Below are positions 5,592 through 23,630 of a stretch of DNA of 62,787 bases, piece by piece (the stretch's first letter is position 1; each line of letters begins with the position of its first letter). Source of the stretch: Marivita sp. (GTDB lineage: Bacteria; Pseudomonadota; Alphaproteobacteria; Rhodobacterales; Rhodobacteraceae); the NCBI RefSeq assembly GCF_022763305.1, contig NZ_JALEGT010000056.1, forward strand, positions 1 through 62,787, read 5' to 3'. A program made the position numbers and the translations under genes. The notes under the pieces were generated by a model, which was not told the origin of the DNA, made no database searches, and saw only the letters and a list, made by a program, of their open reading frames with translations.

Positions 5592-7010
5592 ATGCTGTCG
5601 AGCCTCAGCCTGCGCCTGCGTATCTTTCTGTTCTTCTGTCTTCTGGGCCTCGGCGGGTTGGCGTCGGTCGGCGTTGCACTCTGGTTCGGCCATGCCCGCG
5701 CGCTGGACACCACCGTCGCCAATGGTTTCACCTTTGCGGCGATCCTTGCAGCCTTCCTGATCCTTGGACTGACCGTCGGCATATGGCTGCTTTTTGACGA
5801 GAACGTCGCCAAGCCCATCGAGCGGCTGGCGGCGCAGATGCGCAGCCGGGCCCATGCCGGTGTCGATGGTGCGCTCGACATGGCTGCAGCGCGATACCTG
5901 GGCGATCTCGCCCCCGCCGCTTCGGCCGTGACCAAACAGCTGAACGACACCGCCCTGATGACGGCACAGGCGATTGCCAAGGAGACCGCGCGCCTGACCG
6001 AAGAAAAGGCCCGCCTGACCGCCCTGCTGACCGAGATCCCCGTGGCGACGATCCTTGTCGGACCCAGCGGTCAGATCGTGCTGTACGATGGGCAGGCCGC
6101 CGAAGTGTTGGCGCAGCTGGGTGTGCCGCGACTGAACGCGCCGATCCGGGAATATTTCGACGCCAAGACCTTGGGCGCGGCCGTCACCCAGTTGGCCCGC
6201 ACCGGCATGGACGTGCGGTTCACGGCGCATTCGCCGGACGGCACGCAAAGCTTTGACACGCGGCTGAAGCCGATGGACGGCGGCGGCTACCTGATGGTGA
6301 TCGACAGCCAGACGCTCGACATCGCGCCGGATGCGGCCCGCCCGCTTGTCTATGATTTCGACCTGCTGGACCAGCGGCGTGGCGCGGCCGAGATGGACAT
6401 TCTCGACACACCGCTGCGCGCCTTGTGTTTCTCGGTCTTCGACACCGAAACAACCGGTCTCCTGCCGCATAAGGACGACGTGGTGCAACTCGGCGCGGTG
6501 CGGGTCCTGAACGGGCGCATCATCGAGGGTGAAACCATCAACCAGCTTGTCGATCCGGGCCGCCCGATCCCACCTGCCTCGACCAAGGTGCACAAGGTGA
6601 CGGACGCGATGGTGCGCGGGCAACCCGACATCCATACGGTCGCCAAACGCTTTCACGATTTTTCCCGCGACGCGGTGATCGTCGCGCACAACGCACCCTT
6701 CGACATGGCATTCCTGCACCGTCAGGCCAAGACAACCGGCGTCACCTGGGACCACCCGATCCTCGACACCGTGCTTCTGTCCGCCGTCCTGTTCGGCGCC
6801 AGCGAGGCGCACACGCTGGATGCGCTGTGTGAACGGCTGAGCGTCACGATCCCGACAGAGCTTCGTCACACGGCCTTGGGTGATGCCCGTGCCACGGCAG
6901 AGGTGCTGGTGAAGATGCTGCCGATGCTCGAGGCGCGGGGTCTGATCACGTTTGGTCAGGTGATCGAGGAGACGCGCCGCCACGGCCGCCTCCTCGAAGA
7001 TCTCAACTGA
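5592..7010 (+). CDS. Membrane-anchored PAS-domain 3'-5' exonuclease (DnaQ-like)
   Basis: A 472-aa protein: two membrane helices (residues ~10-35 and ~47-68), a HAMP-like linker, a PAS-like segment (~160-240), then a DEDDh exonuclease domain (~300-465). The catalytic set is visible: FDTETTG, AHNAPFDMAFL and HTALGDARAT. The exonuclease part resembles the epsilon subunit of DNA polymerase III, but the membrane and PAS modules are foreign to replication proofreading. Its 3' end overlaps the converging tctA gene by 8 bases. A nuclease under sensory control in an acetate-uptake operon is odd; its substrate is unknown. Confidence 0.88.
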   Translation: MLSSLSLRLRIFLFFCLLGLGGLASVGVALWFGHARALDTTVANGFTFAAILAAFLILGLTVGIWLLFDENVAKPIERLAAQMRSRAHAGVDGALDMAAARYLGDLAPAASAVTKQLNDTALMTAQAIAKETARLTEEKARLTALLTEIPVATILVGPSGQIVLYDGQAAEVLAQLGVPRLNAPIREYFDAKTLGAAVTQLARTGMDVRFTAHSPDGTQSFDTRLKPMDGGGYLMVIDSQTLDIAPDAARPLVYDFDLLDQRRGAAEMDILDTPLRALCFSVFDTETTGLLPHKDDVVQLGAVRVLNGRIIEGETINQLVDPGRPIPPASTKVHKVTDAMVRGQPDIHTVAKRFHDFSRDAVIVAHNAPFDMAFLHRQAKTTGVTWDHPILDTVLLSAVLFGASEAHTLDALCERLSVTIPTELRHTALGDARATAEVLVKMLPMLEARGLITFGQVIEETRRHGRLLEDLN

Positions 7011-8493
7011 GCGGAACCGTCTTGCGCAGAGTGCTGCGGGTGATCGCGAAGACCGTGATGGCTGTCAGCGCCCAGAAGAACCACGTGATCGGCCCGCGGA
7101 ACAGGATGCTCGGGTCACTGCCGGACATCAGCATTGACTGACGGAAATTGTCCTCGAGCAGCGGGCCGAGGATGAAGGCGATCAGGAACGGCGCAGCGGG
7201 GATGCGATTGCGCATCATGATGTAGCCGACCCAGCCCATGACGAACATCACACCGACATCGAAGATGTTGTTGTTCACCGCGAACACCCCGTAGATGCAC
7301 AGCACCAGAACACCCGGCATCAGGATGCGCTTGGGCACGTCCGCGACAAACCGGAAGCCACGAATGGCGACCGATCCCACGACCAGCAGGAACACCGAAC
7401 TGACGATCAGGCCGATGAAGAGGCCATAGATGATGTCGACATTCAGGATGAACATCATCGGCCCCGGCTGAAGCCCGTGCACCATGAAGGCCCCGATGAT
7501 GATCGCGGTGATCACGTCACCCGGCACACCCAACGCAAGAAGCGGGATCAGGGTTGCGCCCGCCACACCGTTGTTGCCAGCCTCGGACGCGGCCACGCCT
7601 TCGATCTCGCCCTTGCCGAAATTGGCCTTGTTCTTCGAGGTGCGCCGCGCTTCGGAATAGCTCAAGAAAGCAGAAGGCGCAGCACCGATACCGGGGATGG
7701 AGCCAAGGAACACGCCGATCAGGCTGCCCCGGATGATGCTCTTGAAGCTCTTGGCATAGTCCGCAAAGGTACAGCGCGATTTCCCCAAGGCACGGGTGCG
7801 CCCCAGATGCGCCACCGGGTTCCACGCCATCGCAATGATCTCGGGGATCGCGAAAAGGCCGATCAGAACGGCGATGAAGTTGAGACCGCCCATCATGTTG
7901 GGATCGCCAAAGGTGAAACGGTTGGTGCCGTAGACGAGATCAAGCCCGATGGTCGCCAGCAGCAGGCCGGCCAGCGCTGACAGCGCCCCGCGCAGCAGGC
8001 TTTCGCCCGATACACCGGCGATGATGGTCAGGGAGAACAGGATCAGCGCAAAGAACTCTGGCGGCCCGAAATTGAGCGCAAAGGACGCCAGCCATCCGGC
8101 GAAGAGAATGAGCGCAAGGTTCGACACCGCGTCCGCCGTACAGGACGCATAAAGCGCCATACCCAGCGCCCTGCCCGCCTCGCCCCGTTCTGCCATCGGA
8201 TGCCCGTCAAGGATCGTGGCGGACGAGGCTGGCGTGCCAGGTGTCTTGATCAGGATCGCCGGGATCGACCCGCCGAAGATCCCGCCCTTGTAGACCCCGA
8301 GCAGCAGCAGGATCGCGTTGATCGGTGTCATCGCAAATGTGAAGGGCAGCGTCAGCGCCACTGCCATCGTCGCTGACAGGCCGGGAATGGCCCCGGCCAC
8401 CACACCGACCACAAGCCCGATGAAGAGCATCAGGAAGGCTTCGACATTACCAACCAGCGAAAGGCCGGCGGCCAGACTGTCCATCAGGCTCAT
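7003..8493 (-). CDS. tctA: Tripartite tricarboxylate transporter, large membrane subunit TctA
   Basis: A 496-aa, highly hydrophobic protein of the TctA family, the main channel of secondary TTT importers for tri-, di- or aromatic carboxylates. The family signature GAIPGLSATMAVALTLPFTF appears near residue 30 and a second inverted-repeat signature SIPGIGAAPSAFLSY near residue 320. The start at 8493 (MSLMDSL) was chosen because its ATG overlaps the tctB stop (ATGA). It is the last gene of tctCBA, divergent from lysR. The substrate cannot be read from the sequence; neighbours suggest an unusual dicarboxylate. Confidence 0.93.
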   Translation of the reverse strand: MSLMDSLAAGLSLVGNVEAFLMLFIGLVVGVVAGAIPGLSATMAVALTLPFTFAMTPINAILLLLGVYKGGIFGGSIPAILIKTPGTPASSATILDGHPMAERGEAGRALGMALYASCTADAVSNLALILFAGWLASFALNFGPPEFFALILFSLTIIAGVSGESLLRGALSALAGLLLATIGLDLVYGTNRFTFGDPNMMGGLNFIAVLIGLFAIPEIIAMAWNPVAHLGRTRALGKSRCTFADYAKSFKSIIRGSLIGVFLGSIPGIGAAPSAFLSYSEARRTSKNKANFGKGEIEGVAASEAGNNGVAGATLIPLLALGVPGDVITAIIIGAFMVHGLQPGPMMFILNVDIIYGLFIGLIVSSVFLLVVGSVAIRGFRFVADVPKRILMPGVLVLCIYGVFAVNNNIFDVGVMFVMGWVGYIMMRNRIPAAPFLIAFILGPLLEDNFRQSMLMSGSDPSILFRGPITWFFWALTAITVFAITRSTLRKTVPLS

Positions 8494-8987
8494 GGCAACC
8501 TCACGAAATCGCCCTGCGGGACCGCCACACCGGCGACATGCGCAAAGAACGCGTAAAGCAAGAGCGGCACGACCACGGCACAGACCAGTGCCGCTTTCGG
8601 GTGCCGCGTGCGAAAGAGAAAGGCGCAGGCCGCGAAGGCCAACATCGTTGTCCACACCATGCCAAGCCGCGGCAGCGCCACCATCGTGATCATCATGATC
8701 ACCGCCAGCGCCCCCAGCCGCATCCACGGCGCAGAGCCTTCGGGATGGACATCCTCTTCATCCTCGAACGGCGCGTCCGAGGCTGCGGTCATCGCGTTGA
8801 AGATCAGGCTCAGCCCGACGATGCCGGTCAGACCGGCAAGCACGAAGGGCCAGAATTTCGGGGACAGGATGATATTGCCGACATTGGACGGCGCAAACAC
8901 GAAGCTGGGAATGGCGTAGAGCACCAGGAACAGCGCAAACAGGGACGCAACGATCCCGAGACGCAGGTGCAGGGATTTCTGGGACAT
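8490..8987 (-). CDS. tctB: Tripartite tricarboxylate transporter, small membrane subunit TctB
   Basis: A 165-aa protein with four predicted helices and a charged central loop (about residues 70-88, EDEEDVHPEG). Length, topology and position between tctC and tctA fit TctB, a poorly conserved family recognised mainly by context. It is coupled to tctA through ATGA. A strong hairpin in the 77-base gap upstream (9012-9039) may lower its transcript level relative to tctC. Confidence 0.88.
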   Translation of the reverse strand: MSQKSLHLRLGIVASLFALFLVLYAIPSFVFAPSNVGNIILSPKFWPFVLAGLTGIVGLSLIFNAMTAASDAPFEDEEDVHPEGSAPWMRLGALAVIMMITMVALPRLGMVWTTMLAFAACAFLFRTRHPKAALVCAVVVPLLLYAFFAHVAGVAVPQGDFVRLP

Positions 8988-9011
8988 GGGCAGGTGGGCT
9001 CCGAAGGTGGC

Positions 9012-9039
9012 AACGCCGAGACCAGAAGGCCTCGGCGTT
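9012..9039 (-). terminator. Intercistronic hairpin between tctC and tctB
   Basis: Perfect 9-bp inverted repeat AACGCCGAG (9012-9020) and CTCGGCGTT (9031-9039) with a 10-base loop. On the minus strand no T-run follows, so this looks like an mRNA-stabilising or partial-termination element and not a full terminator. It lies right behind the binding-protein gene. Confidence 0.6.
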
Positions 9040-9064
9040 TTCGTTGGACGGTCAGGGTCGGGGA

Positions 9065-10042
9065 TCAGCCTTCGATCCGCATCCCCAGCTCATCCACCAG
9101 TGCGCGGAACACCGAATACTGATTGTTGATGAACGCGATCGCCTCGTCCGGGCTCATCACGTCGATCACCGATCCCATCGACGACATGGTTTCCGCGAAT
9201 TTCGCGTCCTGTGCGGCCTCGGTGATCCAGTCGCCCCACTTGGCGCTCACATCATCCGGCAGACCTGCGGGTCCGGCAATGCCGGTCCAACCGACCAGAG
9301 CGTTCAGGCGTGGCTTGCCCAGCTCGTTGGCGGTGGGGGCATCAAAGCCGACGACGGGCTCTTCGGTGGTGACCATCAGCGCCTTGAGCTGGTTGTTCGC
9401 GACAAAGTTCGCCAGCGCCGATGTGTTGGTGCAGATGAAGGTCGCGGTGCCGTTCAGAACTGCCGTGGCCGCAGCGCCCCCACCCTGCTGGGGAATATGC
9501 GTGGCTTCGGTCAGCGGGTTTTCGACGCCGAATTCCTTGAGCACCATGGCTCCGGCAAGATGCAGCAGCGATCCGACACCGGACGAGCTGTAGCTGACGC
9601 CACCCTCGGCCACCTTGGCAACCAGATCATCCATCGACTCGATGCCGCTGTCGGGACGGACGGCGCAGGCTACCGGGTTGATCTCGTAGACCGTCACGAA
9701 CCGGAAATCATCCAGCGTGTAGGGCAAAGTCGCTTTCATCGCCGGGTTCACGGAATGCGACCCGACACGCGCAAAGAGCATCGTGTAGCCATCCGGCTTC
9801 GCGTTCTGCACCGCAACCGATCCGGTCGCGCCACCCGCGCCGGTGACGTTTGCCATGATGAGCGGTGTGCCCGCCGCGGTACCCAGCGCCTCTGCAATGG
9901 TGCGGGCGGAAATGTCGGTCGCGCCGCCGGCACCGTAGGGGATGATCATGTTGATCGGGCGCTCCGGATATTCCGCCATCGCCGCACCAGCAACCAGGCC
10001 CACCCCGAGCGCGATCACAGAACCAAGTGTCCGTAGTTTCAT
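9065..10042 (-). CDS. tctC: TctC/Bug-family periplasmic binding protein
   Basis: A 325-aa secreted protein. Residues 1-23 form a Sec signal ending AMAEYPERP, and the mature start YPERPINMIIPYGAGGATDISAR is the standard Bug/TctC ligand-site opening. These proteins bind carboxylates through two water-mediated contacts and deliver them to TctAB. It is the first gene of the operon, transcribed away from lysR across a 125-base divergent promoter region. A lysine-rich or sulfonate-specific signature is not evident by eye, so the ligand remains open. Confidence 0.93.
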   Translation of the reverse strand: MKLRTLGSVIALGVGLVAGAAMAEYPERPINMIIPYGAGGATDISARTIAEALGTAAGTPLIMANVTGAGGATGSVAVQNAKPDGYTMLFARVGSHSVNPAMKATLPYTLDDFRFVTVYEINPVACAVRPDSGIESMDDLVAKVAEGGVSYSSSGVGSLLHLAGAMVLKEFGVENPLTEATHIPQQGGGAAATAVLNGTATFICTNTSALANFVANNQLKALMVTTEEPVVGFDAPTANELGKPRLNALVGWTGIAGPAGLPDDVSAKWGDWITEAAQDAKFAETMSSMGSVIDVMSPDEAIAFINNQYSVFRALVDELGMRIEG

Positions 10043-10167
10043 AGTCTCCTCCCAAATTGAATTTCGACCCTGTTGCGGGCTCTTGACTTACGTTAACCTT
10101 AAGTAGAGCTTTGACGAAGAAATAAAAAATTACAAGTTCTGTAAGCAGAAACTTCAGAAACGGCAAA
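10043..10167. promoter_or_regulatory. Divergent tctC-lysR promoter region with LysR-type site
   Basis: The 125-base gap is AT-richer than its surroundings. It contains an imperfect palindrome ACTTA (10086-10090) and TAAGT (10100-10104) centred on GTTAAC, fitting the T-N11-A rule for LysR binding, and a second dyad TTCTG (10137-10141)/CAGAA (10146-10150) just upstream of lysR. Control of both genes by the LysR protein is inferred. Confidence 0.5.
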
Positions 10168-11073
10168 ATGTCCATCAGATTGCTCAAAACTCTGGTCGCG
10201 GTGGCCGATCACAAGACATTCAGCGCAGCCGCGGATGCGGTGTTCATCACCCATGCCGCCGTCAGCCAGCAGATGCGCACGCTGGAAGCCGATCTTGGAA
10301 TCGCTCTCTTCGACCGCAGCCACCGCACGCCGGAACTGACCCCGCTGGGACGCGCCGTCGTCGCCCGGGCCCGGAAGCTGGTGTTGGACTACGACAACCT
10401 CGTGCCTTCGGTGCTGGGGGACGATGGCCTGACCGGCGAGGTGATGCTGGGCGCCGTGCCCACCACTCTGATCGGCCTTGCGCCGCTGTCCATGTCTATC
10501 CTGCGCGCACGGTTCCCGGACCTTCGGGTGCGGATCACCCCGGCCCTTACTGCGGCCCTGCTGTCGGGGCTGGACCGCGGGCATTACGACGTGGCCATCG
10601 TGACCAAACCGGTGCTGATGCCGTTGGGCCTGGTGTTTCTCGAGATCGCGGAAGAACCGCTGCATCTCATCACCGGTTCAGAGATCACCGAAACAAACCC
10701 TGTCAAGATCCTGCAAACGCAGCCTTTCATCCGCTTCAACCGCGACGCGGTCGTCGGCACGCTGATCGAGACATGGCTGCAGGAAAACAGCATTCGCGTG
10801 AGCGAGGCGATGGAGCTTGAAAACCTCGAGGCGATCTCGAGCATGGTGCATGCCAATCTCGGTGTGTCCATCGTTCCCAGACCTTGCGTGAGCAGCGCCT
10901 ATGCCATTCCGCTCAACACGGTTGGTCTGGGCGACAAAGCCCCGTCCCGCGTCCTCGGGCTCGCCTATCGCAAGGAACACCCCAAGCAGCGCGTTATTGA
11001 GGAAATTCACGCAGCCCTTCTGCGCGCGGTGGACGAACACGCCCCCGGACGGCCGATGGACGGTGCCGCATGA
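10168..11073 (+). CDS. LysR-family transcriptional regulator
   Basis: A 301-aa protein with the LysR winged helix-turn-helix at residues 1-60 (SIRLLKTLVAVADHKTFSAA, then AAVSQQMRTLEADLGIALFDR) and a type 2 periplasmic-fold effector domain after about residue 90. It is divergent from tctCBA and its stop overlaps the start of the TSUP gene (ATGA), so it probably controls the transporter and perhaps the converging enzyme operon. The inducer is unknown; by the usual LysR logic it would be the transported acid or a metabolite of it. Confidence 0.92.
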   Translation: MSIRLLKTLVAVADHKTFSAAADAVFITHAAVSQQMRTLEADLGIALFDRSHRTPELTPLGRAVVARARKLVLDYDNLVPSVLGDDGLTGEVMLGAVPTTLIGLAPLSMSILRARFPDLRVRITPALTAALLSGLDRGHYDVAIVTKPVLMPLGLVFLEIAEEPLHLITGSEITETNPVKILQTQPFIRFNRDAVVGTLIETWLQENSIRVSEAMELENLEAISSMVHANLGVSIVPRPCVSSAYAIPLNTVGLGDKAPSRVLGLAYRKEHPKQRVIEEIHAALLRAVDEHAPGRPMDGAA

Positions 11074-11813
11074 CGATCGAAGCGATCCTCTTCATCACGC
11101 TGGGAGCCATCGCCGGCGGTTTCGTCAACGGGCTGGCAGGCACGGGCACGGCGCTTTTTGCGCTGGGGTTCTTTCTGGTGGCGGTCGAACCGGTGAGCGC
11201 GGTCGCCGTCGTGTCGCTGATGTCGGTGGTCACCGGCCTGCAGGGACTCTGGGTCGTGCGCGAGGCGCTGACCAAGAACGTGCCGCGCCTCATGCGCTTC
11301 ATCATTCCAGGCCTCTTGGGCGTGCCTGTGGGCATCTCCCTGCTCAGCTTCATCGACGCGGATACGCTCAAGCTGATTATCGGCGTGCTTCTCTTGATTT
11401 ATGGCGGCTTCTTCAGTTTCCGCGCGAACCTTCCCAAGTTCGAACGACGCACACCCGCGCTCGATTCGATGATCGGACTCAGCGGCGGCGTGCTGGGCGG
11501 AATGGCATCACTTTCGGGCGCGCTTCCGGTGATCTGGTGTTCCATGCGGCCCTGGCCCAAGGCAGAGACCCGCGCGGTGCTGCAACCCTTCAACGTGAGC
11601 GTTCTGTTCACCACGACCGTCATGCTGTGGTGGCGCGGCGCGTACACCTCGTCCACGCTCACCGCCTTTCTGATCGCGCTCCCGACATCGCTGCTCGCGG
11701 CACAGATCGGGATTGCGGTTTTCAAACGCATCTCGGACAACATCTTCAGACGGCTGCTGATCGGGCTGTCCCTGCTCCTGGGGCTGGGTATTCTGATTCG
11801 AGCCCTTGTCTGA
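11070..11813 (+). CDS. TSUP/TauE-SafE family membrane exporter
   Basis: A 247-aa membrane protein with about eight helices and the TSUP opening GAIAGGFVNGLAGTGTALFAL followed by a second inverted copy near residue 133 (GLSGGVLGGMASLSGALPV). Members include the sulfite or sulfoacetate exporters TauE/SafE and related organosulfur or sulfide transporters, though many have other or unknown substrates. Start ATG overlaps the lysR stop. With a sulfite-oxidase-family enzyme in the converging operon, export of sulfite is an attractive but unproven role. Confidence 0.85.
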   Translation: MTIEAILFITLGAIAGGFVNGLAGTGTALFALGFFLVAVEPVSAVAVVSLMSVVTGLQGLWVVREALTKNVPRLMRFIIPGLLGVPVGISLLSFIDADTLKLIIGVLLLIYGGFFSFRANLPKFERRTPALDSMIGLSGGVLGGMASLSGALPVIWCSMRPWPKAETRAVLQPFNVSVLFTTTVMLWWRGAYTSSTLTAFLIALPTSLLAAQIGIAVFKRISDNIFRRLLIGLSLLLGLGILIRALV

Positions 11814-11841
11814 CCCTAGACCCTGGCCCGGAGGACCGCAT

Positions 11842-12459
11842 ATGCTCACACTCTACTACGCCAAAGGCTCATCCGCCCTTGCCCCGCATATCCTGCTGGA
11901 AGAGGTTGGCGCAGCCTATGCCGTCCACGAGGTGCCGATTGCCAAGGGCGCGCACACCGAACCCGAGTATCTCGAGATCAATCCCAAGGCGCGCGTGCCC
12001 GCACTGATGACCCCGAACGGCGTGATCACCGAAAACCCGGCCATCCTGACCTATCTCGCGGCCACCCATCCGCAGGCGCGCATGCTGCCCGAAACCCCGT
12101 TCGAACGGGCCGAGGCGGACGCGCTCTGCGCCTATCTTTGCGCCACCGCGCATGTGGCCTTTGCCCACCTTCTGCGCGGCGCCCGCTGGGCCGACAGCGC
12201 CGAGGCACTGGAGGCGATGAAGGCCAAGGTCGCCGACAATCTGCGCGACTGTGCGAAAGTGATCGAATCCCATCACCTCAAGGGGCCGTGGGCAATGGGG
12301 GACCGCTACACGTTCTGTGACGCCTACCTGTTCCTGATGCCGCGCTGGATGGACAAGGCCGGGGTCGACCTGTCCGACTATCCCAAGCTGGCCGCCCATC
12401 ACGACGCGATGCTGCACCGCCCGGCAACTCTGGCCGTAATGGCGGTACACGGGATCTAG
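11842..12459 (+). CDS. Glutathione S-transferase family protein
   Basis: A 205-aa protein with an N-terminal thioredoxin-like fold (MLTLYYAKGSSALAPHILLE) containing the cis-proline segment KARVPALMTPNG and ENPAILTYL, which bind glutathione, and an all-helical C-terminal domain with FCDAYLF. Serine (GSS) occupies the position of the catalytic residue. The ATG at 11842 follows CCCGGAGGACC, a good ribosome site 28 bases after the TSUP gene. It ends one base before the converging ThDP gene. Function is probably conjugation or maintenance chemistry; the substrate is unknown. Confidence 0.85.
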   Translation: MLTLYYAKGSSALAPHILLEEVGAAYAVHEVPIAKGAHTEPEYLEINPKARVPALMTPNGVITENPAILTYLAATHPQARMLPETPFERAEADALCAYLCATAHVAFAHLLRGARWADSAEALEAMKAKVADNLRDCAKVIESHHLKGPWAMGDRYTFCDAYLFLMPRWMDKAGVDLSDYPKLAAHHDAMLHRPATLAVMAVHGI

Positions 12460-12460
12460 A

Positions 12461-14026: not shown

Positions 14027-15129
14027 ATACCGGCCTCGGCCACGTGCACGCGCACGCGGTGGACGGAATTGTTGGCAAATCCCGCCATGTCGAACGGGGC
14101 CTCCAAGGGTTGCGTATTCCCGTTGGCATCGGTGGCGCGGCAGGCCAGGTCATAGACACCCGGCGTTGCGTCCCAGTCGATGCGCCATCCGGTCCAGGCA
14201 TAGGTGTCGGGCCGTCCGGTCAACTCGGCGTTCTGCCATGTGTCACCCAACAGAACCTCCACCCGCGTGATCGGCACACCCCCACCAGACCAAGCGCGTC
14301 CTTCCAGCGTCACGCGTCCGGCCTGCAGCCAGCGCTGCCGCGTCACCCAATCGGGCACGCCCGGGGGTTTCATCAGCGATTTAACCCGGATCGTCGTGAC
14401 CGGCGTGCCGGGATCAGTCTCGTCCTTGCGCAGCCGGTAGGTCTGCACCTGCTGGAACCCTTGGTAGCGCTCGGTCAGCGCCTCAATCGTCGTCAGCCAT
14501 TTGACCGACGCCATTCCGTACCAGCCCGGCACGATGATCCGCAAAGGTGCACCATGTTGCGGCAGAAGTGGCTGGCCGTTCATGCCCCAGACCAGCATCA
14601 CATCCAGATCGGCGATCTGGTCGGGCGTCAGACTGCGGCCGAAGTAATGCGGCTGGCCCTTGTCGAACCCGAAATCCGCCCCCAGGAAGGCGAAGTCCTG
14701 CACGCCACTCTGTGGCCTCGCACGCTCCAGCAGAGGCGCAAGCGGTGTGCCGGTCCATTCCGACGTGCCCACCGCCTCGTACATCCAGGGCATCGAGAAA
14801 CAGCGCGGGCTGACCCCGGCGCGACCGTTGCCCGCACATTCCAATGTTACCGGCATGGTCTTTTCCGGCAGCGCCCGGATGTCGTCCATCGTCAGCGCAT
14901 AGGGCGCATCGAACGCGCCTTCGAAGGTCAGCACATGCTCGGCATCTGAAAGGACCGGCACATCGAAATGGTTGAGCAGGTAGTGTGTGCCCGTGGGCGT
15001 GATCTCCAGCCCCAAAGTCTCCAGCAACGCGCCAGAGTTGCGGTTCGCCAGCGCCACTTCCTCGCGCGAGAACACGCCTTCAGTCACCTCCGGGCGCTTG
15101 GCTCCCGGCGCAAATGGGTTCTGGATCAT
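14023..15129 (-). CDS. Sulfite-oxidase-family molybdopterin protein, cytoplasmic
   Basis: A 368-aa protein with the oxidoreductase molybdopterin-binding domain (residues ~45-230) and the Mo-cofactor dimerisation domain (~250-365). The molybdenum-ligand cysteine lies in VTLECAGNGRAG, matching the ECAGNRR-type motif of sulfite oxidases. There is no heme domain and no Tat or Sec signal, so it should be cytoplasmic, unlike periplasmic SorA or SoxC. It overlaps its neighbours by ATGA at both ends. Oxidation of sulfite, or of another oxyanion, is the family role; linkage to a TauE-like exporter in the same locus supports sulfite chemistry. Confidence 0.82.
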   Translation of the reverse strand: MIQNPFAPGAKRPEVTEGVFSREEVALANRNSGALLETLGLEITPTGTHYLLNHFDVPVLSDAEHVLTFEGAFDAPYALTMDDIRALPEKTMPVTLECAGNGRAGVSPRCFSMPWMYEAVGTSEWTGTPLAPLLERARPQSGVQDFAFLGADFGFDKGQPHYFGRSLTPDQIADLDVMLVWGMNGQPLLPQHGAPLRIIVPGWYGMASVKWLTTIEALTERYQGFQQVQTYRLRKDETDPGTPVTTIRVKSLMKPPGVPDWVTRQRWLQAGRVTLEGRAWSGGGVPITRVEVLLGDTWQNAELTGRPDTYAWTGWRIDWDATPGVYDLACRATDANGNTQPLEAPFDMAGFANNSVHRVRVHVAEAGI

Positions 15130-15791
15130 ATCACCTCGTCCGACCGGTCGTCGCTTTCGCCATAGCGCTTGAGCACGGCGGGCTTCGTGCCTTCATACAC
15201 CCGCTCGATATTCTGCGCGATCTTGGCATTCTCCCGCTCGAACAGGCAATCGCCATTCAGATCCGAGGCCACGATGAATGGCCCCATCTTGTTGCACCTG
15301 ATGACCCACATGGCCTGCGCAAGGCCCAGTTCCTCGTTCCAGTGCACCGCCTCGACGTTCTCCACCCCGCGCCCCAGAAGCGCGCCGGTGCCATAGCCCA
15401 CGGTCGACAGGTACACCGCGCCGTTGGGCACGAAGTAGGACTTGTAGTCCTTCGACGACATACCGCCCTTTCCGATGATGAGCTTCGCGCCGGTCTTCTC
15501 CATCCATTCCGGCAACCACTTGGCAAAGCGGAAGGACGCTGTGGCGGTCACGGCCCCCATGTCGAAACTGCCATCCGCGTTGATCCGCGCCGCCGGAGAG
15601 CAATGGAAGTTCGCCGCACTTTCGGACGGCAACTCCATGGGAATGTTGGCTTTATCCTCGAGCGCGCGCATGTAGACACCCTCGCGGGCGGTATACATCA
15701 GCCCGTCCAGATAGACGATGTCGCCCAAGCGAAGTTCGGCAATCGCCTCGGGCGTGGGTGTGGTAGAGAGGCGTATCTCGCGCGGTTTCAT
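15126..15791 (-). CDS. Class I fumarase/tartrate dehydratase-type beta subunit
   Basis: A 221-aa protein equal to the C-terminal domain of iron-sulfur fumarases and TtdB. Recognisable elements are RLGDIVYLDGLMYTAREG, the active-site loop IIGKGGMS and the family end motif EAVHWNEELGLAQAMWVI. It would pair with the alpha subunit at 16933-17889 to form a [4Fe-4S] hydro-lyase. A CoA-transferase gene sits between the two subunits, all joined by ATGA overlaps. The substrate could be fumarate/malate, mesaconate, tartrate or another 2-substituted succinate. Confidence 0.88.
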   Translation of the reverse strand: MKPREIRLSTTPTPEAIAELRLGDIVYLDGLMYTAREGVYMRALEDKANIPMELPSESAANFHCSPAARINADGSFDMGAVTATASFRFAKWLPEWMEKTGAKLIIGKGGMSSKDYKSYFVPNGAVYLSTVGYGTGALLGRGVENVEAVHWNEELGLAQAMWVIRCNKMGPFIVASDLNGDCLFERENAKIAQNIERVYEGTKPAVLKRYGESDDRSDEVI

Positions 15792-16936
15792 GACGTGACC
15801 TTTTCAATCGAATTGGCAACAATGTCAGCCGTGTGCTGGCCGAGCGTCGGCACCGGCTCGAGGTGGACCGGCGCCCAAGGCGCATCGAACGGCAGGCTGG
15901 GGGCACAGACAGTCATGTCAAGCTGCGGCACCTCCAGCGGCAACCATGCGCGGCTGGTCTTCATCTGCGGATGATCCAGCGCCTCGGCCAAAGTCCGCAC
16001 CCTGGCCGCAGGCACGTTGGCGGCGGACAGCCTGTCCTCCCAAATCTGCGCGTCTAGCGTGAGGAAGATGGCCCGCAGCGCCTCGGCGATCCCCGTGTCG
16101 TCCGTGTTCTCGGCCAGATCGGGCCGATCCACCGCCGCACAAAGGCGCTTGGCCTGCGCGGGCGTATTGGCCGTGATGACCAGCGATCCCTCAGCGGTGT
16201 CGAAGCGTCCGGAAAACGGCGTGTCGGCAAAGGCGCGGTTGCCTTCAAGACCGCGCAACTGGCCGGTTGTTTCGTGATGGATCGCATAGGCCCCCATAAA
16301 GGTGGTCATGGCGTCCAGCATCGACACGGACAGGCGCTGCGCCTCGCCCGGTTTGCGCGCCTTTTGCAGCAAGGCGCCGAGCAAAGTCGCCACCAAGGCC
16401 TGACCCGCGACATAGTCCACGATGGGCAGACCCACCCGCATTGGCCCGCTGCCGGACTCTCCGGTCATGGCCATCAAGCCGCTGATGCCCTGCAGGATGT
16501 GATCGTATGCGGGGCGGTCGGACAGCGGCCCTTCGGCACCATAGCCATTGAGGCTGGCATAGATGATGTCGGGACGGACCTTTCGAACAGCGTCGAACCC
16601 GACGCCCAGCCGGTCGACCACACCGGGACGGAAGTTTTCGACCATCACATCGGCCGTCTTGGCCAGTTCCAGAAGCTGGCCGCGTTGGTCGGGGTCTTTC
16701 AGATCAAGAACGATGGACCGTTTCCCGCTGTTCTGGCTCAGGAAGGACGCGCCCAGCCCCGCGTCCTTCATCGCCTGCGTCCCCCCGTGGCGGCGGACGA
16801 AATCGTCGCTGTTCGGGCGTTCGACCCGGATCACATCGGCTCCCATCAGGGCCAGTTGCCCCGTCGCATATGGCCCGGCCAGAACATGGGTCAGGTCGAG
16901 GATGCGCACACCGGTCAGGGGACCGTCGGCATTCAT
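15788..16936 (-). CDS. CaiB/BaiF family (class III) CoA-transferase
   Basis: A 382-aa protein that begins LTGVRILDLTHVLAGPYATG, the CoA-binding start of class III transferases. The catalytic aspartate is in the PAYDHILQGISGLM segment near residue 153. These enzymes move CoA between carboxylic acids, as in formyl-CoA:oxalate, succinyl-CoA:mesaconate or itaconate systems. The ATG at 16936 was chosen because it overlaps the upstream alpha-subunit stop. Its insertion between two subunits of one hydro-lyase suggests that activation of the same acid, or its product, belongs to the pathway. Confidence 0.9.
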   Translation of the reverse strand: MNADGPLTGVRILDLTHVLAGPYATGQLALMGADVIRVERPNSDDFVRRHGGTQAMKDAGLGASFLSQNSGKRSIVLDLKDPDQRGQLLELAKTADVMVENFRPGVVDRLGVGFDAVRKVRPDIIYASLNGYGAEGPLSDRPAYDHILQGISGLMAMTGESGSGPMRVGLPIVDYVAGQALVATLLGALLQKARKPGEAQRLSVSMLDAMTTFMGAYAIHHETTGQLRGLEGNRAFADTPFSGRFDTAEGSLVITANTPAQAKRLCAAVDRPDLAENTDDTGIAEALRAIFLTLDAQIWEDRLSAANVPAARVRTLAEALDHPQMKTSRAWLPLEVPQLDMTVCAPSLPFDAPWAPVHLEPVPTLGQHTADIVANSIEKVTS

Positions 16937-17889
16937 TCCGCCGCCTCGCGGATCGGTTCCCACTCGACGGTCTCGCGGCGCTGGTAGGGTGTGAACCAGT
17001 CCGGATCAGTCCGATGCTCGACCCGGCCGTCGGGGTAGATCCGAGCCACGGCCCGGCGTGAGGACAGGCAGAAGGCATGCACCGACATCGGCATCCCGCC
17101 GGTGTGGCAGTAGCCCACCTCGATATTGCAATCGATCACCATGTTCTTGCCGACAAAGCCCATCGCGCCCATGCCGATGGAGTTGCCCAATTCCTTGAAC
17201 TCCTCCTCCATCTCGGCGATGCGTGGATCGGAATTTCGGCTGCCAACAGTGCGCAGAACAGACGCGCGTTTGCCCAAAGTCATGCAGATGTCCTTCGATC
17301 CACCCAGCCCGATCCCGATGATCGCCGGCTGGCAGGCCAGACCCCGCTTGCCAAAGGCCATCAGACTGTCGAGGTAGAAGCGCTTGATCCCCTGAATGCC
17401 ATCGGACGGGAACAGCATCCGGTAATCGGTTCCGAACAACCCGCCCTTGTGAACGGTGATCAGGTCGATCCACTCGCCCTCGGGCTCGAACCCGTATTCG
17501 ATCTCGGGCGCGCCGATGCCCACATTGTTGTTGTGATCCGTCCGCCAGAGCGGATGCACCCGGTTCGGCCGCAGCGGCACACCATTGGTGGCACTGGCCG
17601 TGGCGCGGCGCAACGCGGTTTCCAGCGCGCACATGCCGCCTTCGACCTTGGCGTCATTGCCCAGTTTCACGAACCAGCGCGGCACGCCGGTGTCGCCACA
17701 CATCGCGCGGCGGTCTTCCTTGGCGGCCTCGTAATTGTCGAGCATCGCCTTGAGAACAAAGGACGACAGGTCGCCGTCTTCGGTCTCTGCCGCCTTCTTG
17801 AGACCGTCGAGGTAATCCTCGGGGATCTCGATGGCCGCCTTGTCCATCAGGGTTTCGGCGGTTTTCTGGATCAGGTCGATCGGGATCAT
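16933..17889 (-). CDS. Class I fumarase/tartrate dehydratase-type alpha subunit
   Basis: A 318-aa protein homologous to the N-terminal part of iron-sulfur fumarases and to TtdA. Three cysteines expected to hold the [4Fe-4S] cluster are visible: MCGDTGVPRWF, ACQPAIIGIGLGGS and CNIEVGYCHTGG. HNNNVGIGAPEIEY and the GIGLGGSKD stretch match the substrate region. ATG 17889 (MIPIDLI) follows GCGAGGCACAGC on the minus strand. Hydration or elimination on a fumarate-like substrate is expected; the split alpha/beta arrangement resembles tartrate or mesaconate dehydratases more than housekeeping fumarase. Confidence 0.9.
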   Translation of the reverse strand: MIPIDLIQKTAETLMDKAAIEIPEDYLDGLKKAAETEDGDLSSFVLKAMLDNYEAAKEDRRAMCGDTGVPRWFVKLGNDAKVEGGMCALETALRRATASATNGVPLRPNRVHPLWRTDHNNNVGIGAPEIEYGFEPEGEWIDLITVHKGGLFGTDYRMLFPSDGIQGIKRFYLDSLMAFGKRGLACQPAIIGIGLGGSKDICMTLGKRASVLRTVGSRNSDPRIAEMEEEFKELGNSIGMGAMGFVGKNMVIDCNIEVGYCHTGGMPMSVHAFCLSSRRAVARIYPDGRVEHRTDPDWFTPYQRRETVEWEPIREAAE

Positions 17890-18071
17890 GCTGTGCCTCG
17901 CTTGTGAGCGTTGCTTCGTCCGGCGCAAGCCGGACAGCCCCCGACCGCCCCGTTTTGCCAGAGGCAAACTTCCAGTTTGACGGGCGGGGACTTCACCCCC
18001 ACCCGCGGTCGCGCGCTGTCCGGCACCAAATGTTGCTTTGGGCTGTCCATATATTTCATGGCAGGTTCCAT
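17886..18071 (-). CDS. Possible small ORF (61 aa) coupled on both sides
   Basis: An open frame fills the gap between the flavoprotein and fumarase-alpha genes. Its ATG overlaps the upstream stop by one base (TGATG) and its TGA overlaps the downstream ATG (ATGA), the same couplings used throughout this operon. The 61-aa product has three cysteines (VCLWQNGAVGGCPAC), a basic C-terminus and no recognisable domain or signal. A GTCCGGC/GCCGGAC hairpin (17918-17935) lies inside it, so the region might instead be an untranslated processing spacer. I recognise no homologue; it is listed because the overlaps are exact. Confidence 0.42.
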   Translation of the reverse strand: MEPAMKYMDSPKQHLVPDSARPRVGVKSPPVKLEVCLWQNGAVGGCPACAGRSNAHKRGTA

Positions 18072-19834
18072 CACTGCGCCGCCACCAGTGTCTCTGGCTC
18101 CCCCTCGGGCAGCACGGTCTCCCCCGGGCGCACGATGGTGAACTGCACGTCCTCGCGCCCCACCTCGACCGCGCCATCCACCTGCCGCGCGACGGTGAAA
18201 TAGCTGTCCTCCATGGCGCCCGGATCGGGGAAATCCTCGCGGTAATGCGCCCCGCGCGAGTTCTCCCGCGCCAGTGCCGCCTTGGTGATCACCTCGGAAA
18301 TATCGCAGAGCGACCGCAGGTTCAGCCAGTCGTGCCATGTGAGATTGAACGCGAGATACTCCGACGCCACACCCACATCCATCAGCGCGTTCGAGATCTC
18401 GGCAATCCGCCCCAAGCCGCGCGTCAGCCCGGCCTCGGTGCGCATCACGCCAACCTCGTCCCACATCGCCTCCTGCAACGCTTTGCGCAACGGCAGCACC
18501 AGCTCGGGCTTGCGCGTCAGAGGATGACAGGCGCGCAGCAGCTCGGACTCCAGAACGCTCTCGTCCGGATCACGCAGCGCGCCCATGCCGCGAATGTCCG
18601 CGCCCATCACATCACCCGCGATGCCGCCATAGACGGTGGAGTTGGCCACGCCATTGCCGCCCAACCGGTTTGACCCGTGCGCGCCGCCAGCGTCCTCCCC
18701 GGCCACGTACAACCCTTCCATCGCCGTGCGCGTGTCCACATCGACCACGACGCCGCCCATGAAGTAATGCGCCGTCGGCACCACCTCGACCTTGCCACCC
18801 GCCAGATCGAAGCCGCAATCGGCGCAGCGCTTGACCATGCCCTTGAACTTTTCCCGCACGAAATCCGGCCCGAGATGGGACATGGAGATGAACACGCCCT
18901 CCTGCTCAGGATTGTTGTTCTTGCGCATCTCGGCATAGATGCCCCGGCTGACCACGTCACGGGTTGCCCGTTCGCCCTTGGCGTCATAATCGAACATGAA
19001 GCGCTGCCCCGCGTGGTTCACCAACTGCCCGCCGGCCCCGCGCAGACCTTCCTCCAGCACCGTCCCGGTCATCCGCGTGTGATCGCCCGCCAAGAGCCCG
19101 GTCGGATGGAACTGCACCATCTCCATATCGCGCAGCGGCAAACCGACACGCAGCGCCATGGCGAGGCCGTCCATCGTCTTGTCGCCCGAGGGCGTGTGGT
19201 ACTTGTACATGGTCGGGCCACCGCCCGTCGCCATCAGCACCGTCTTGGCGCGCACGAAGCGAAACCGTCCGGTGCGCATGTCGATCATCAGCACACCGGC
19301 AAGGGCCGATCCGTCCTTCGTCGGGATCAGGCCAATCGCGCGGTGCTCCTGCAACTTCTCGACGGGGCGCGACAGCACCTGCTCCATCAATCGGTTGATG
19401 ATCTCGATTCCCGTCAGGTCGCCCTTGTGAACGGTGCGGTCCGCCGTCTGCCCGGCAAAGGCCTTCTGATGCAGCGACCCGTCCGCGTTGCGATCGAAGA
19501 AACAGCCGATCTCGTTCTCCAGCTCGCGGATGCGCACCACCGCCTGTTCGCAAAGCCGCCACGCCATGTCCTGATTGGGCAGCCATTTGCCGCCCTCGAT
19601 CGTGTCCATGAAATGCCGTTCGACCGAGTCACCATTGCCCAGCGCCACGTTATACCCGCCCTGCACCATCCGCGTGCAGCCGCATTTGCCGATCAGCCCC
19701 TTGACCGCGATGGTCACCTTGGTGCCCTCGGGCGCGCTCTGCATCGCGTGGAGGGCGGCGAACATGCCCGCTCCGCCCGTGCCGAGGATCAGGATGTCGG
19801 TGTCGTGCCGGTCGATGTCTTTTGTCGTGAACAT
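18071..19834 (-). CDS. Fumarate reductase/succinate dehydrogenase-type flavoprotein
   Basis: A 587-aa FAD protein. The dinucleotide fold starts ILILGTGGAGMFAAL. Residues that bind the dicarboxylate are present: QFHPTG, EEGLRGAGG, PTAHYFMGG and GSNRLGGNGVANS with the catalytic arginines. At the site where SdhA/FrdA carry the histidine that covalently holds FAD (RSHT), this protein has CGCT, so the flavin is probably non-covalent. The C-terminal domain is shorter and divergent from SdhA. It forms one operon with membrane and iron-sulfur subunits (19836-21225). Direction of catalysis and exact substrate are uncertain. Confidence 0.88.
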   Translation of the reverse strand: MFTTKDIDRHDTDILILGTGGAGMFAALHAMQSAPEGTKVTIAVKGLIGKCGCTRMVQGGYNVALGNGDSVERHFMDTIEGGKWLPNQDMAWRLCEQAVVRIRELENEIGCFFDRNADGSLHQKAFAGQTADRTVHKGDLTGIEIINRLMEQVLSRPVEKLQEHRAIGLIPTKDGSALAGVLMIDMRTGRFRFVRAKTVLMATGGGPTMYKYHTPSGDKTMDGLAMALRVGLPLRDMEMVQFHPTGLLAGDHTRMTGTVLEEGLRGAGGQLVNHAGQRFMFDYDAKGERATRDVVSRGIYAEMRKNNNPEQEGVFISMSHLGPDFVREKFKGMVKRCADCGFDLAGGKVEVVPTAHYFMGGVVVDVDTRTAMEGLYVAGEDAGGAHGSNRLGGNGVANSTVYGGIAGDVMGADIRGMGALRDPDESVLESELLRACHPLTRKPELVLPLRKALQEAMWDEVGVMRTEAGLTRGLGRIAEISNALMDVGVASEYLAFNLTWHDWLNLRSLCDISEVITKAALARENSRGAHYREDFPDPGAMEDSYFTVARQVDGAVEVGREDVQFTIVRPGETVLPEGEPETLVAAQ

Positions 19835-19835
19835 G

Positions 19836-20174
19836 TCAGATCGCCTGCAAGAGGAAGGTTGTGGAGACAAGGAACGACCCGGCCACCGCCGCCGCCGCCC
19901 ATGTCTTTTGCGGGGCCGACCACGGCAGCCACTCCAGCGCGATCAGGCGCAGACCGCCGAAGAAATGCACCGCCAGAAGGAAGACCAGACCGAACTCGGC
20001 CAGTTTGACCAACGGCATCTCGGTCAGCGTCAGAAACGCGTCCAGCTTGGCCGCGTCGTTCAGCGCATAGGACAGCACCCAGAAATGCAGTGGCAGGAAG
20101 AGCGCAAGGCCAAGGCCCGACAGACGGTGCAGCAGGTAGGCCAGCCAGAGCGGATGAGCGCGCGCGACCTTCAT
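19836..20174 (-). CDS. Membrane anchor subunit of the fumarate reductase-type complex (SdhC-like)
   Basis: A 112-aa protein with three membrane helices. It begins with the SdhC pattern HRLSGLGLALFLPLHFW, containing the serine/arginine quinone-site pair and candidate heme-ligand histidines, and has a second histidine in LAVHFFGG. It would anchor the flavoprotein and iron-sulfur subunits and pass electrons to or from quinone. ATG 20174 overlaps the preceding anchor gene's stop; one base separates it from the flavoprotein gene. Confidence 0.83.
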   Translation of the reverse strand: MKVARAHPLWLAYLLHRLSGLGLALFLPLHFWVLSYALNDAAKLDAFLTLTEMPLVKLAEFGLVFLLAVHFFGGLRLIALEWLPWSAPQKTWAAAAVAGSFLVSTTFLLQAI

Positions 20175-20500
20175 GCCGTCACCGCCCAGACCGCCTGCGC
20201 GCCCAGCGCCAGCAGGCCCAGCCCGATCACAGCCGACACCGCATCCCGTGCGCCGCCGCGCAGACCCGCCCATTCGCCAAGAATGGTGCGCAGTCCGATG
20301 GTTGCGTGGATCGACACGGCCACCACGAAGAGGCCGTAGAAGGCGAACCAGAAGGCCGAGCCTTGTGTGCGGCCAAGGATCTCTGCCGCGGACAGCCCGC
20401 CCTGAATCGCGTAGATCATCACACCGATATGCACGATCACGAACGGCGCCATCACCAGCGCCGACAGGCGTTGCGCCATGTAGAGGTGAAACTCGCTCAT
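20171..20500 (-). CDS. Second membrane anchor subunit of the fumarate reductase-type complex
   Basis: A 109-aa protein with three helices, opening MSEFHLYMAQRLSALVMAPFVIVH, which mirrors the QR-S motif of succinate dehydrogenase anchors, with histidines in VIVHIG and SIHATIG that could ligate heme b. The ATG at 20500 overlaps the iron-sulfur subunit stop (ATGA). With the neighbouring 112-aa protein it gives the usual two-anchor quinone-reactive module. Confidence 0.82.
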   Translation of the reverse strand: MSEFHLYMAQRLSALVMAPFVIVHIGVMIYAIQGGLSAAEILGRTQGSAFWFAFYGLFVVAVSIHATIGLRTILGEWAGLRGGARDAVSAVIGLGLLALGAQAVWAVTA

Positions 20501-21225
20501 TTCCGCCCCCCGAAAAACCGTTTGGCCGTTGCGCGCTTCAACCCCGCAATCGCCGAGAGCGGGTCCAGCTCGTTCGGGCAATAGGCGGTGCACGATCCCA
20601 TCGAATGGCAGGAGTGACAGCCGCCCTTGCCGGACACTGCATCAAGGATCGCATCGCGGTCCGCATCCTTGGCGTCGTTGTAGAGCGTCCACGCCCGTTG
20701 CAGCGCGGCGGGGCCAAGGTAATCGGGATTGCCCGCAACCGTGTCGCAGGCGGAGTAGCAGACCGAGCAGTTGATGCACTCGATCCCGGCATTCGCCGCC
20801 TGCCGCTCCTCCGCCTGCGGGTTCACGGGCGCGATCTCCTCCTCTCGCGTCCGTGTCGGGTGGTGCCGCCCCTCGGCGGCCACCCATTTGTCGAAGAACG
20901 GATCCATGTCAGCGGCCAGATCCTTGATCACCGGCAGGTTGCGCAGCGGGCCGACCTCGATGGCGTTGCCGTCGAGAACCTTGCTCACATGGGTGCGGCA
21001 GGTCCAACGCGGCACGCCGTTGACCATCATCGCACAGCTTCCGCACATGCCGACCCGGCAGGCAAACCGGTAAGTCAGGGTCGGATCGGCGTTCTGCTGA
21101 ATCCACGACACGACATCCAAAACCGTCTGGTTGTCATAGGCCGGCACCTCGAAGGTCTGAGGGCGCAGCGGCGCATCCGGCCCGCCGCGCTGCACCGTCA
21201 CAGTCAAGTGGTCTTGCCCTGGCAC
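20497..21225 (-). CDS. Iron-sulfur subunit of the fumarate reductase-type complex
   Basis: A 242-aa SdhB/FrdB-like protein. The [2Fe-2S] domain has CRVGMCGSCAMMVNG and a fourth cysteine in WTCRTHV; the C-terminal ferredoxin domain has CINCSVCYSAC and CHSCHSMGSCTAYCPN for the remaining clusters. In the first of these motifs the usual proline after the last cysteine is aspartate (SACD). The start is GTG at 21225 with only a weak GGCGGG upstream, so a later start is possible. It is the first gene of a ten-gene minus-strand operon that ends with the ThDP enzyme. Confidence 0.88.
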   Translation of the reverse strand: MPGQDHLTVTVQRGGPDAPLRPQTFEVPAYDNQTVLDVVSWIQQNADPTLTYRFACRVGMCGSCAMMVNGVPRWTCRTHVSKVLDGNAIEVGPLRNLPVIKDLAADMDPFFDKWVAAEGRHHPTRTREEEIAPVNPQAEERQAANAGIECINCSVCYSACDTVAGNPDYLGPAALQRAWTLYNDAKDADRDAILDAVSGKGGCHSCHSMGSCTAYCPNELDPLSAIAGLKRATAKRFFGGRK

Positions 21226-23628: not shown

Positions 23629-23630
23629 GA

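Follow-up and report, generated by a model that had tools for sequence, protein, structure and literature searches.

A candidate module for the catabolism of a short sulfonated carboxylate in Marivita and its relatives

Introduction

A described route for a C3 sulfonate is the sulfolactate pathway, which uses SuyAB together with SlcC and ComC and is found in Roseovarius, Chromohalobacter and Paracoccus. Here we describe an operon of Marivita sp., situated at positions 7003..21225 of a stretch of 62,787 nucleotides (contig NZ_JALEGT010000056.1, in the following the window), whose core encodes a complex of the succinate dehydrogenase/fumarate reductase (SDH/FRD) type and a split class I fumarase. 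The module is real, widespread and linked to sulfonate genes. We give about even chances to the reading that the operon breaks down a short sulfonated carboxylate with direct release of sulfite, the most likely substrate being 3-sulfopropanoate, a succinate analogue in which a sulfonate replaces one carboxylate. The core is best read as a predicted 3-sulfopropanoate dehydrogenase and a predicted sulfoacrylate hydratase.

3-Sulfopropionate (3-SP) is a natural product formed by HpfXYZ in Enterococcus gilvus, which makes it from sulfoquinovose/2,3-dihydroxypropane-1-sulfonate (DHPS), and it is made from homotaurine by Cupriavidus; a TauE of Enterococcus gilvus is described as a probable 3-SP exporter (PMC11489063). 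According to the passage of the same paper that deals with its degradation, this had previously been unreported in bacteria apart from a thesis, cited for the conversion of 3-SP via sulfoacrylate to sulfolactate in Roseovarius nubinhibens, and no genes are named in that passage. The literature on sulfosuccinate, sulfopropanoate, sulfoacrylate and sulfolactate that fell within our scope, most subscription journals lying outside it, named no genes for the catabolism of 3-sulfopropanoate or sulfosuccinate.

With the sulfolactate pathway the operon would have in common a C3 sulfonate, the release of sulfite and an exporter of the TSUP/SuyZ type, and sulfolactate genes adjoin its type II and type III relatives (see below). 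In contrast, the window operon lacks SuyAB, its genome lacks a true SuyB, and the predicted route begins with SDH-like and fumarase-like enzymes. The first two predicted steps resemble the Roseovarius nubinhibens route as cited in PMC11489063, whereas the route of the window type probably bypasses SuyAB. HpfXYZ of Enterococcus gilvus concerns the same C3 compound but makes 3-SP (PMC11489063), while the window operon is proposed to consume it.

Gene content of the Marivita locus

Gene families were assigned by Pfam and NCBIfam profiles, the NCBIfam comparisons being limited to the best 25 of 30 models. The following genes were found:

7003..8493, minus strand: tctA, large permease subunit of a tripartite tricarboxylate transporter (TTT) (PF01970, 478 bits; refined start)
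8490..8987, minus strand: tctB, TTT small subunit (PF07331)
9065..10042, minus strand: tctC, solute-binding protein, ligand predicted to be a sulfonated acid (PF03401)
10168..11073, plus strand: LysR-type regulator (PF03466/PF00126), overlapping the TSUP gene by 4 bp
11070..11813, plus strand: TSUP (TauE/SafE) anion exporter, putative sulfite exporter (PF01925, 107 bits)
11842..12459, plus strand: GST-family protein, accessory (GST_N/GST_C; start at the first ATG)
12461..14026, minus strand: thiamine diphosphate (ThDP) enzyme of the acetolactate synthase/2-hydroxyacyl-CoA lyase/benzaldehyde lyase superfamily (Pfam TPP_enzyme N/M/C)
14023..15129, minus strand: sulfite-oxidase-family molybdoenzyme (SO-like), no signal peptide by eye (PF00174/PF03404, Oxidored_molyb and Mo-co_dimer)
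15126..15791, minus strand: fumB, class I fumarase-type beta subunit of a variant family (PF05683, Fumerase_C; motifs REGxY and TATASFRF)
15788..16936, minus strand: caiB, class III CoA-transferase, accessory (PF02515, CoA_transf_3)
16933..17889, minus strand: fumA, class I fumarase-type alpha subunit of a variant family (PF05681, Fumerase; motif KGGLFGTD, type-specific charged residues)
18071..19834, minus strand: frdA, SDH/FRD-type flavoprotein, putative 3-sulfopropanoate dehydrogenase subunit (FAD_binding_2/Succ_DH_flav_C, E. coli SdhA alignment, signature)
19836..20174, minus strand: sdhC-type membrane anchor (PF01127, Sdh_cyt)
20171..20500, minus strand: sdhD-type membrane anchor (PF01127, Sdh_cyt)
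20497..21225, minus strand: frdB, 2Fe-2S/4Fe-4S subunit (Fer2_3, Fer4_17; TIGR00384 above cut-off)

Every gene family that the first-pass annotation had recognized, from tctCBA, LysR, TSUP and GST to the fumarate-reductase-type complex, the split fumarase, CaiB, the SO-family enzyme and the ThDP enzyme, was borne out by the profiles. The same annotation had described a converging operon of ten genes joined throughout by overlaps. The minus-strand run does converge on the plus-strand genes LysR-TSUP-GST, but it consists of nine genes (frdB-sdhD-sdhC-frdA-fumA-caiB-fumB-SO-like-ThDP), and only six of its eight junctions are overlaps, each of 4 bp; gaps of 1 bp and 181 bp separate sdhC from frdA and frdA from fumA, respectively.

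Variant dehydrogenase and fumarase families

Judged by their sequence signatures, the core enzymes are a distinct family. The FrdA complex has the same four-subunit architecture as succinate dehydrogenase and fumarate reductase, and the residues H242, R286, H354 and R399 of E. coli SdhA, which we take to be catalytic, are kept in the alignment (78/78). It differs from them at the position of T254, presumably the threonine of the second-carboxylate pocket, which is replaced by Glu, and at E260, which is replaced by Ala; the Glu-Glu-Gly motif and the Ala are found in all 78 sequences. A further difference is an inserted stretch relative to SdhA, mostly reading T[RK]MTG. All NCBIfam scores of FrdA fall below the cut-offs among the best 25 of 30 models, the best being NF004900 (476 of 718 bits), with 412 of 567 bits for TIGR01812. 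The Glu at the T254 position is also present in the FrdA homologues of M. radiotolerans, haloarchaea and Rhodococcus RHA1.

FumA carries KGGLFG[TS]D instead of the canonical KGGGSEN-type loop (82/82), and FumB carries REGxY in place of RDxAH (69/69). As in class I fumarase, tartrate dehydratase and mesaconase, the three cysteines and the core Arg/Lys residues are retained (C63, C185, C273 and R106 of FumA; R36, R88 and K108 of FumB) and shared with seven canonical-type proteins; their roles in Fe-S cluster and substrate binding are presumed. Apart from the changed loop and REGxY, the variant FumAB type differs by the extra conserved residues R70, R109, H146 and D154, which the seven type II proteins lack. 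Going by these positions, one carboxylate site of the substrate pocket looks kept and the opposite end looks changed.

The window genome has separate SdhA-like and NadB-like matches and a FumC above cut-off. Because of the separate SdhA-like match, FumC and the differing pocket motifs, a housekeeping copy of the tricarboxylic acid cycle enzymes was ruled out for this block.

Distribution of the core

The conserved core is frdB-sdhD-sdhC-frdA-fumA-fumB; its order recurs in most loci, and the surrounding genes shift. FumB orthologues (E<=1e-40) were found in 42 of the 394 genomes drawn from the family, in 24 of 385 from the class and in 10 of 398 from the phylum; the draws overlap, and that of the family comprises about one genome per genus. 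The core is also present on plasmids of Sulfitobacter, Paracoccus, Pseudorhizobium, Methylobacterium, Cupriavidus and Pseudomonas. Its recurrence is far beyond chance. Exceptions to the order are the loci L097, L098 and L100, where fumAB has no frdA alongside, and L104, which ends before the place of frdA; 6.3 kb and 2.2 kb separate frdA from fumA in L101 and L141, respectively.

Besides TSUP (see below), neighbours in the 42 family loci include the ThDP enzyme (19 loci), TctA (16 loci), an SO-family gene (7 loci), an MR/MLE-family gene (5 loci) and YeiH (3 loci). CaiB and GST, present in 5 and 7 of these loci, stand outside the conserved core and are accessories. The position between fumA and fumB is taken by CaiB, by a methyltransferase-like gene or by nothing. 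The methyltransferase-like gene resembles homocysteine S-methyltransferase and occupies this slot in five loci (L021, L037, L116, L117 and L124; PF02574 in L117).

Linkage to sulfite and sulfonate genes

A TSUP gene stands beside the core in 25 of the 42 family genomes, compared with about 1.2 expected at an average of 6.4 TSUP genes per genome; the binomial p of ~7e-28 overstates the independence of these loci, as they are related, and the true significance is lower. A gene for TSUP, a YeiH/SuyZ-like protein or an SO-family protein adjoins the core in 28/42 family genomes, or 29/42 with a more permissive search, and 5 of the 23 class-draw loci have an adjacent sulfite gene. With a broader query set TSUP-like genes were found in L106, L108 and L135. 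When presence of a sulfite gene is mapped as a label onto the FrdA tree, it changes 18 times, at least 9 changes being forced by well-supported branches, so that the linkage was gained or lost many times.

In Paracoccus and in NT-25/NT-26 a gene of the YeiH exporter family overlaps or abuts fumB, with NIPSNAP and TauE there too. Next to the block of M. nodulans and of Pseudomonas MPC6 are an SO-family protein with a cytochrome c, YeiH and TauE. The linkage to sulfite and sulfonate genes is thus repeated and phylogenetically scattered, across Rhodobacteraceae, Rhizobiaceae, Methylobacteriaceae, Pseudomonas and haloarchaea. It supports the outline of the first-pass annotation, in which a sulfonated acid would be oxidized by the reductase-type complex, the unsaturated product attacked by the fumarase-type enzyme and the sulfite exported.

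TSUP proteins transport various anions. The protein of the window scores 107 bits against a Pfam cut-off of 32.6, and from its setting we infer that it exports sulfite.

Other sulfur genes were noticed near the block. A CuyA-like pyridoxal phosphate protein (297 of 450 bits; L116:2079-3131), with relatives in L135, L143 and L146, is a further hint of C3 sulfonates. In Sulfitobacter THAF37 a 3-sulfinopropanoyl-CoA desulfinase above the NCBIfam cut-off (L081:24742-25914) is situated about 9 kb from fumB; 71% identical relatives are near the block in L124 and L135.

Relatives with other second steps

The loci were divided into type I with variant FumAB, as in the window, type II with canonical-type FumAB and type III, which is haloarchaeal and has an argininosuccinate-lyase-family protein. 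On the two plasmids of M. radiotolerans examined, an FrdA of the same signature occurs with canonical-type FumAB, a ThDP enzyme, TauE, two UxaA-type proteins in a SuyA/SuyB arrangement, a dicarboxylate symporter and SlcC-like and ComC-like dehydrogenases. The alphaproteobacterial loci L162 and L165 have FrdBDC and matches resembling TauE, FumAB, SuyAB, SlcC and ComC. Two haloarchaea combine FrdAB with the argininosuccinate-lyase-family protein, TauE and SuyAB-like proteins, one of them also with an Ldh-family protein. Their FrdA retains Glu-Glu-Gly; the lyase reaches 260 of 575 bits with the sulfonate-pathway model XcbC, and the argH model scores higher, above its cut-off. At the locus of Rhodococcus RHA1, FrdAB and canonical-type FumAB are accompanied by weak matches resembling SuyA (33%) and succinate-semialdehyde dehydrogenase (SSADH; 41%), and no SuyB match was found. 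The identities of SuyAB, SlcC, ComC and HpsNOP are those that we presume from architecture and homology, SlcC and ComC being weak NCBIfam hits.

Neighbours at further loci agree with a C3 sulfonate. A 'sulfolactaldehyde 3-reductase' and gabD are found by the block of NT-25; in NT-26 the SSADH is above the subfamily cut-off and the reductase just below its own. P. versutus and L147 have HpsNOP-like genes near their blocks.

If the hydrated product of FrdA feeds a sulfolactate lyase, as the type II and III loci suggest, FrdA would produce 3-sulfoacrylate from 3-sulfopropanoate, a scheme with no place for sulfosuccinate.

Genes for aconitase X and DUF126 adjoin the block in L079, L090, L163 and L164. 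The last two have canonical-type FumAB and no SuyB match, and the pair might there represent another desulfonating or dehydrating step.

Proposed pathway and the site of desulfonation

From gene content, conserved signatures and gene linkage we infer a substrate, a series of reactions, a site of water addition and an export step as follows. TctCBA would import 3-sulfopropanoate, and the membrane-bound FrdABCD-type complex would oxidize it to 3-sulfoacrylate, passing the electrons to quinone. The variant [4Fe-4S] FumAB would then add water at the sulfonated carbon. The predicted product, 3-hydroxy-3-sulfopropanoate, is the bisulfite adduct of malonate semialdehyde and would collapse to malonate semialdehyde and sulfite. 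TSUP would export the sulfite, and malonate semialdehyde would be converted to acetyl-CoA, e.g. via MmsA encoded elsewhere in the genome.

Two observations bear on the site of water addition. First, SuyB is adjacent in none of the 85 type I loci, as opposed to four of the eight type II and both type III loci (Fisher p 2.4e-7). After removal of near-duplicates (L046/L087, L082/L150 and L083/L151 of type I, and L153/L170) the figures are 0/82 and 5/9 (p=2.7e-6). A true SuyB is missing from the window genome, whose best match has 32% identity compared with 73-81% for clear orthologues elsewhere, and from 30 of the 41 other type I family genomes. Second, MmsA is linked to the block: in MPC6 an MmsA gene above cut-off starts at the stop codon of fumB, MmsA-like matches are near the block in Cupriavidus P-10 and L148, and M. 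nodulans has a fragment. Altogether 40 of the 42 type I family genomes, that of the window included, encode MmsA. Because of the missing adjacent SuyB and the MmsA linkage, the most economical interpretation is that the sulfite is released by the variant FumAB itself.

Our proposal of C-S bond cleavage by a class I fumarase-like [4Fe-4S] enzyme, which would direct water onto the sulfonated carbon of 3-sulfoacrylate and so yield sulfite and malonate semialdehyde, is a tentative one, to which we give somewhat less than an even chance. We are similarly cautious about the wider picture that includes this cleavage, in which three second-step solutions (variant FumAB; canonical-type FumAB with SuyAB; an argininosuccinate-lyase-family protein with SuyAB) would share one FrdA-type dehydrogenase in bacteria and haloarchaea.

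Further genes of the operon

The first-pass annotation had regarded the molybdoenzyme as a sulfite oxidase, which now appears doubtful. The SO-like protein keeps the Mo-coordinating Cys of CxGN[GS]R and its Arg (C98 and R103) and reaches 167 of 600 bits with the NCBIfam SorA model. The position of SorA R55 (human R160), which we take to be the sulfite-binding Arg, is Leu in the window protein and in every one of the 15 aligned operon copies; the three Arg rows of the alignment are the sulfite-oxidase-family proteins of M. nodulans and MPC6. The C-terminal substrate-side Arg of SorA was also not seen in the alignment. With both arginines missing, we did not file the SO-like protein as a sulfite oxidase; that it is a sulfinate oxidase is an idea only. 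A 'sulfite oxidase' of Deinococcus deserti (L155:5854-7194) likewise has Leu at the Arg55 position, and the Leu-type proteins may be a wider subfamily.

Close copies of the SO-like gene (72-100% identity) are present in 17/17 Marivita-genus genomes, the window included, and copies of 63-69% identity in three further genera (195 genomes searched). In 13 of the 17 Marivita-genus assemblies, the window among them, the gene lies about 14-15 kb from the contig end on the tct side. The recurrent distance points to a conserved repeat immediately outside the window, perhaps an rRNA operon.

The ThDP enzyme also occurs without SO-like or CaiB. Together with LysR and TauE it forms a separate module in P. 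seriniphilus and, with SO-like in addition, in G002. Among the best 25 of 30 NCBIfam models it stays below every cut-off, with 229 of 600 and 191 of 557 bits for the 2-hydroxyacyl-CoA lyase and oxalyl-CoA decarboxylase equivalogs, respectively, and its best PDB relative is benzaldehyde lyase. An oxalate or 2-hydroxyacyl-CoA route through CaiB and ThDP was dropped in view of the scarcity of CaiB (5/42), the swaps in its slot, the frequent occurrence of ThDP without CaiB and its sub-cut-off scores. That CaiB is found in merely five family loci also speaks against CoA transfer as a core step, as had been supposed at first.

G002 has a second copy of SO-like, TSUP, LysR and ThDP genes without the SDH/fumarase core (L026:8402-12871), which adjoins arylsulfotransferase-family and sulfotransferase-family genes.

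Directly upstream of frdB the window encodes a two-subunit molybdenum enzyme of the xanthine oxidase family (21382-24092, minus strand; MoCoBD_1/2 in the large chain, Fer2 and Fer2_2 in the small chain). The gene pair is retained at this place in most Marivita loci with sufficient flank; among the other loci checked, only L106 had related genes in the vicinity.

Discussion

A number of observations, besides the relatedness of the TSUP-bearing loci, weigh against 3-sulfopropanoate with direct sulfite release; some are general and the others are given with the alternatives. It is not obvious how the Glu that FrdA has in its second-carboxylate pocket would bind a sulfonate, and NCBIfam gave no SuyAB hit for the SuyAB-like proteins. 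In Sulfitobacter S190, whose FumA is 91% identical, no sulfite gene was found within 13 kb. No TSUP, YeiH or SO gene is adjacent in 13/42 family loci and in 18/23 class-draw loci (L087-L109), the absence being uncertain for the ten of the latter that end <=5 kb from fumB on one side (L093-L096, L100-L104 and L107). Some members may therefore act on a different substrate or have their sulfite disposal encoded elsewhere. The first-pass annotation had named conservation of the block without the TSUP and SO genes as an argument against a sulfonate; such conservation was found in these 13 family and 18 class loci and not in the other 29 family loci.

The strongest alternative keeps the substrate but lets the variant FumAB hydrate C2, giving 3-sulfolactate that would be desulfonated by enzymes encoded elsewhere, either SuyAB or a dehydrogenase and a decarboxylase such as ThDP with Xsc. 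The thesis route cited in PMC11489063 favours it, as in that citation the thesis names sulfolactate and not malonate semialdehyde. Xsc is above cut-off in 37 of the 42 type I family genomes, including that of the window, a count for which only block genomes were compared; a route from sulfolactate via sulfopyruvate and sulfoacetaldehyde to Xsc may thus operate. The ThDP enzyme of 19 family loci would fit the same route, and so would the SlcC/ComC-like genes by the block of P. versutus and P. ferrooxidans and the SlcC-like gene alone in L130. SuyB is not rarer in block genomes (11/42) than in 38 non-block genomes, i.e. family members not among the matches of the FumB search (8/38; p=0.61). We had considered genome-level co-occurrence of SuyAB as a test for sulfolactate and rejected it, there being no enrichment; only adjacency by locus type is informative. 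This adjacency speaks against sulfolactate, as no type I locus out of 85 has a neighbouring SuyB; so do the absence of SuyB from the genome of the window, the lack of a sulfolactate-dehydrogenase-type gene in its operon and the sulfite exporter genes directly beside fumB in several loci. We consider the sulfolactate route unlikely, although it is a serious competitor.

The case put forward by the first-pass annotation, oxidation of sulfosuccinate to sulfofumarate and hydration to oxaloacetate and sulfite, would also account for the sulfite genes next to the core. The two enzymes have their origin among enzymes of C4 diacids, TctCBA belongs to the polycarboxylate-type transporters, and the MR/MLE-family genes near 5/42 loci could be racemases, which would be more in keeping with a substrate that is chiral, as sulfosuccinate is. 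A C4 substrate is nevertheless disfavoured by the genes to which this FrdA type is linked: SuyAB-like genes in Methylobacterium, in two further alphaproteobacteria and in two haloarchaea, SlcC- and ComC-like genes, and dehydrogenases of the DHPS and succinate-semialdehyde types. The hydration product of sulfofumarate would be no substrate for SuyAB, and an MmsA beside fumB would not be needed for oxaloacetate. We regard sulfosuccinate as improbable.

The sulfite genes might instead serve neighbouring pathways and the block act on a thioether acid or on a C4/C5 acid without a sulfonate (methylsuccinate/mesaconate, tartrate or the like). This would suit the 18 class-draw loci without such genes, the CaiB-, CitE-, MaoC- and PrpD-like neighbours seen by eye in L091 and the homocysteine S-methyltransferase-like gene that five loci have in the fumA-fumB slot, but it is made quite improbable by the repeated and scattered linkage to sulfite and sulfonate genes across lineages and by the loss of the KGGGSEN-type loop in each of the 82 FumA sequences aligned.

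If the assignment to 3-sulfopropanoate holds, the genes for its catabolism would be recognizable by short signatures in about one tenth of the sampled family genomes (42/394), on plasmids and in haloarchaea, and many annotations as 'fumarate reductase/fumarase' would be wrong. It would also point to a possible new way of breaking the C-S bond. The direct release of sulfite, if true, would be a new desulfonation chemistry within a 'sulfonate copy' of the Krebs cycle segment from succinate via fumarate to malate.

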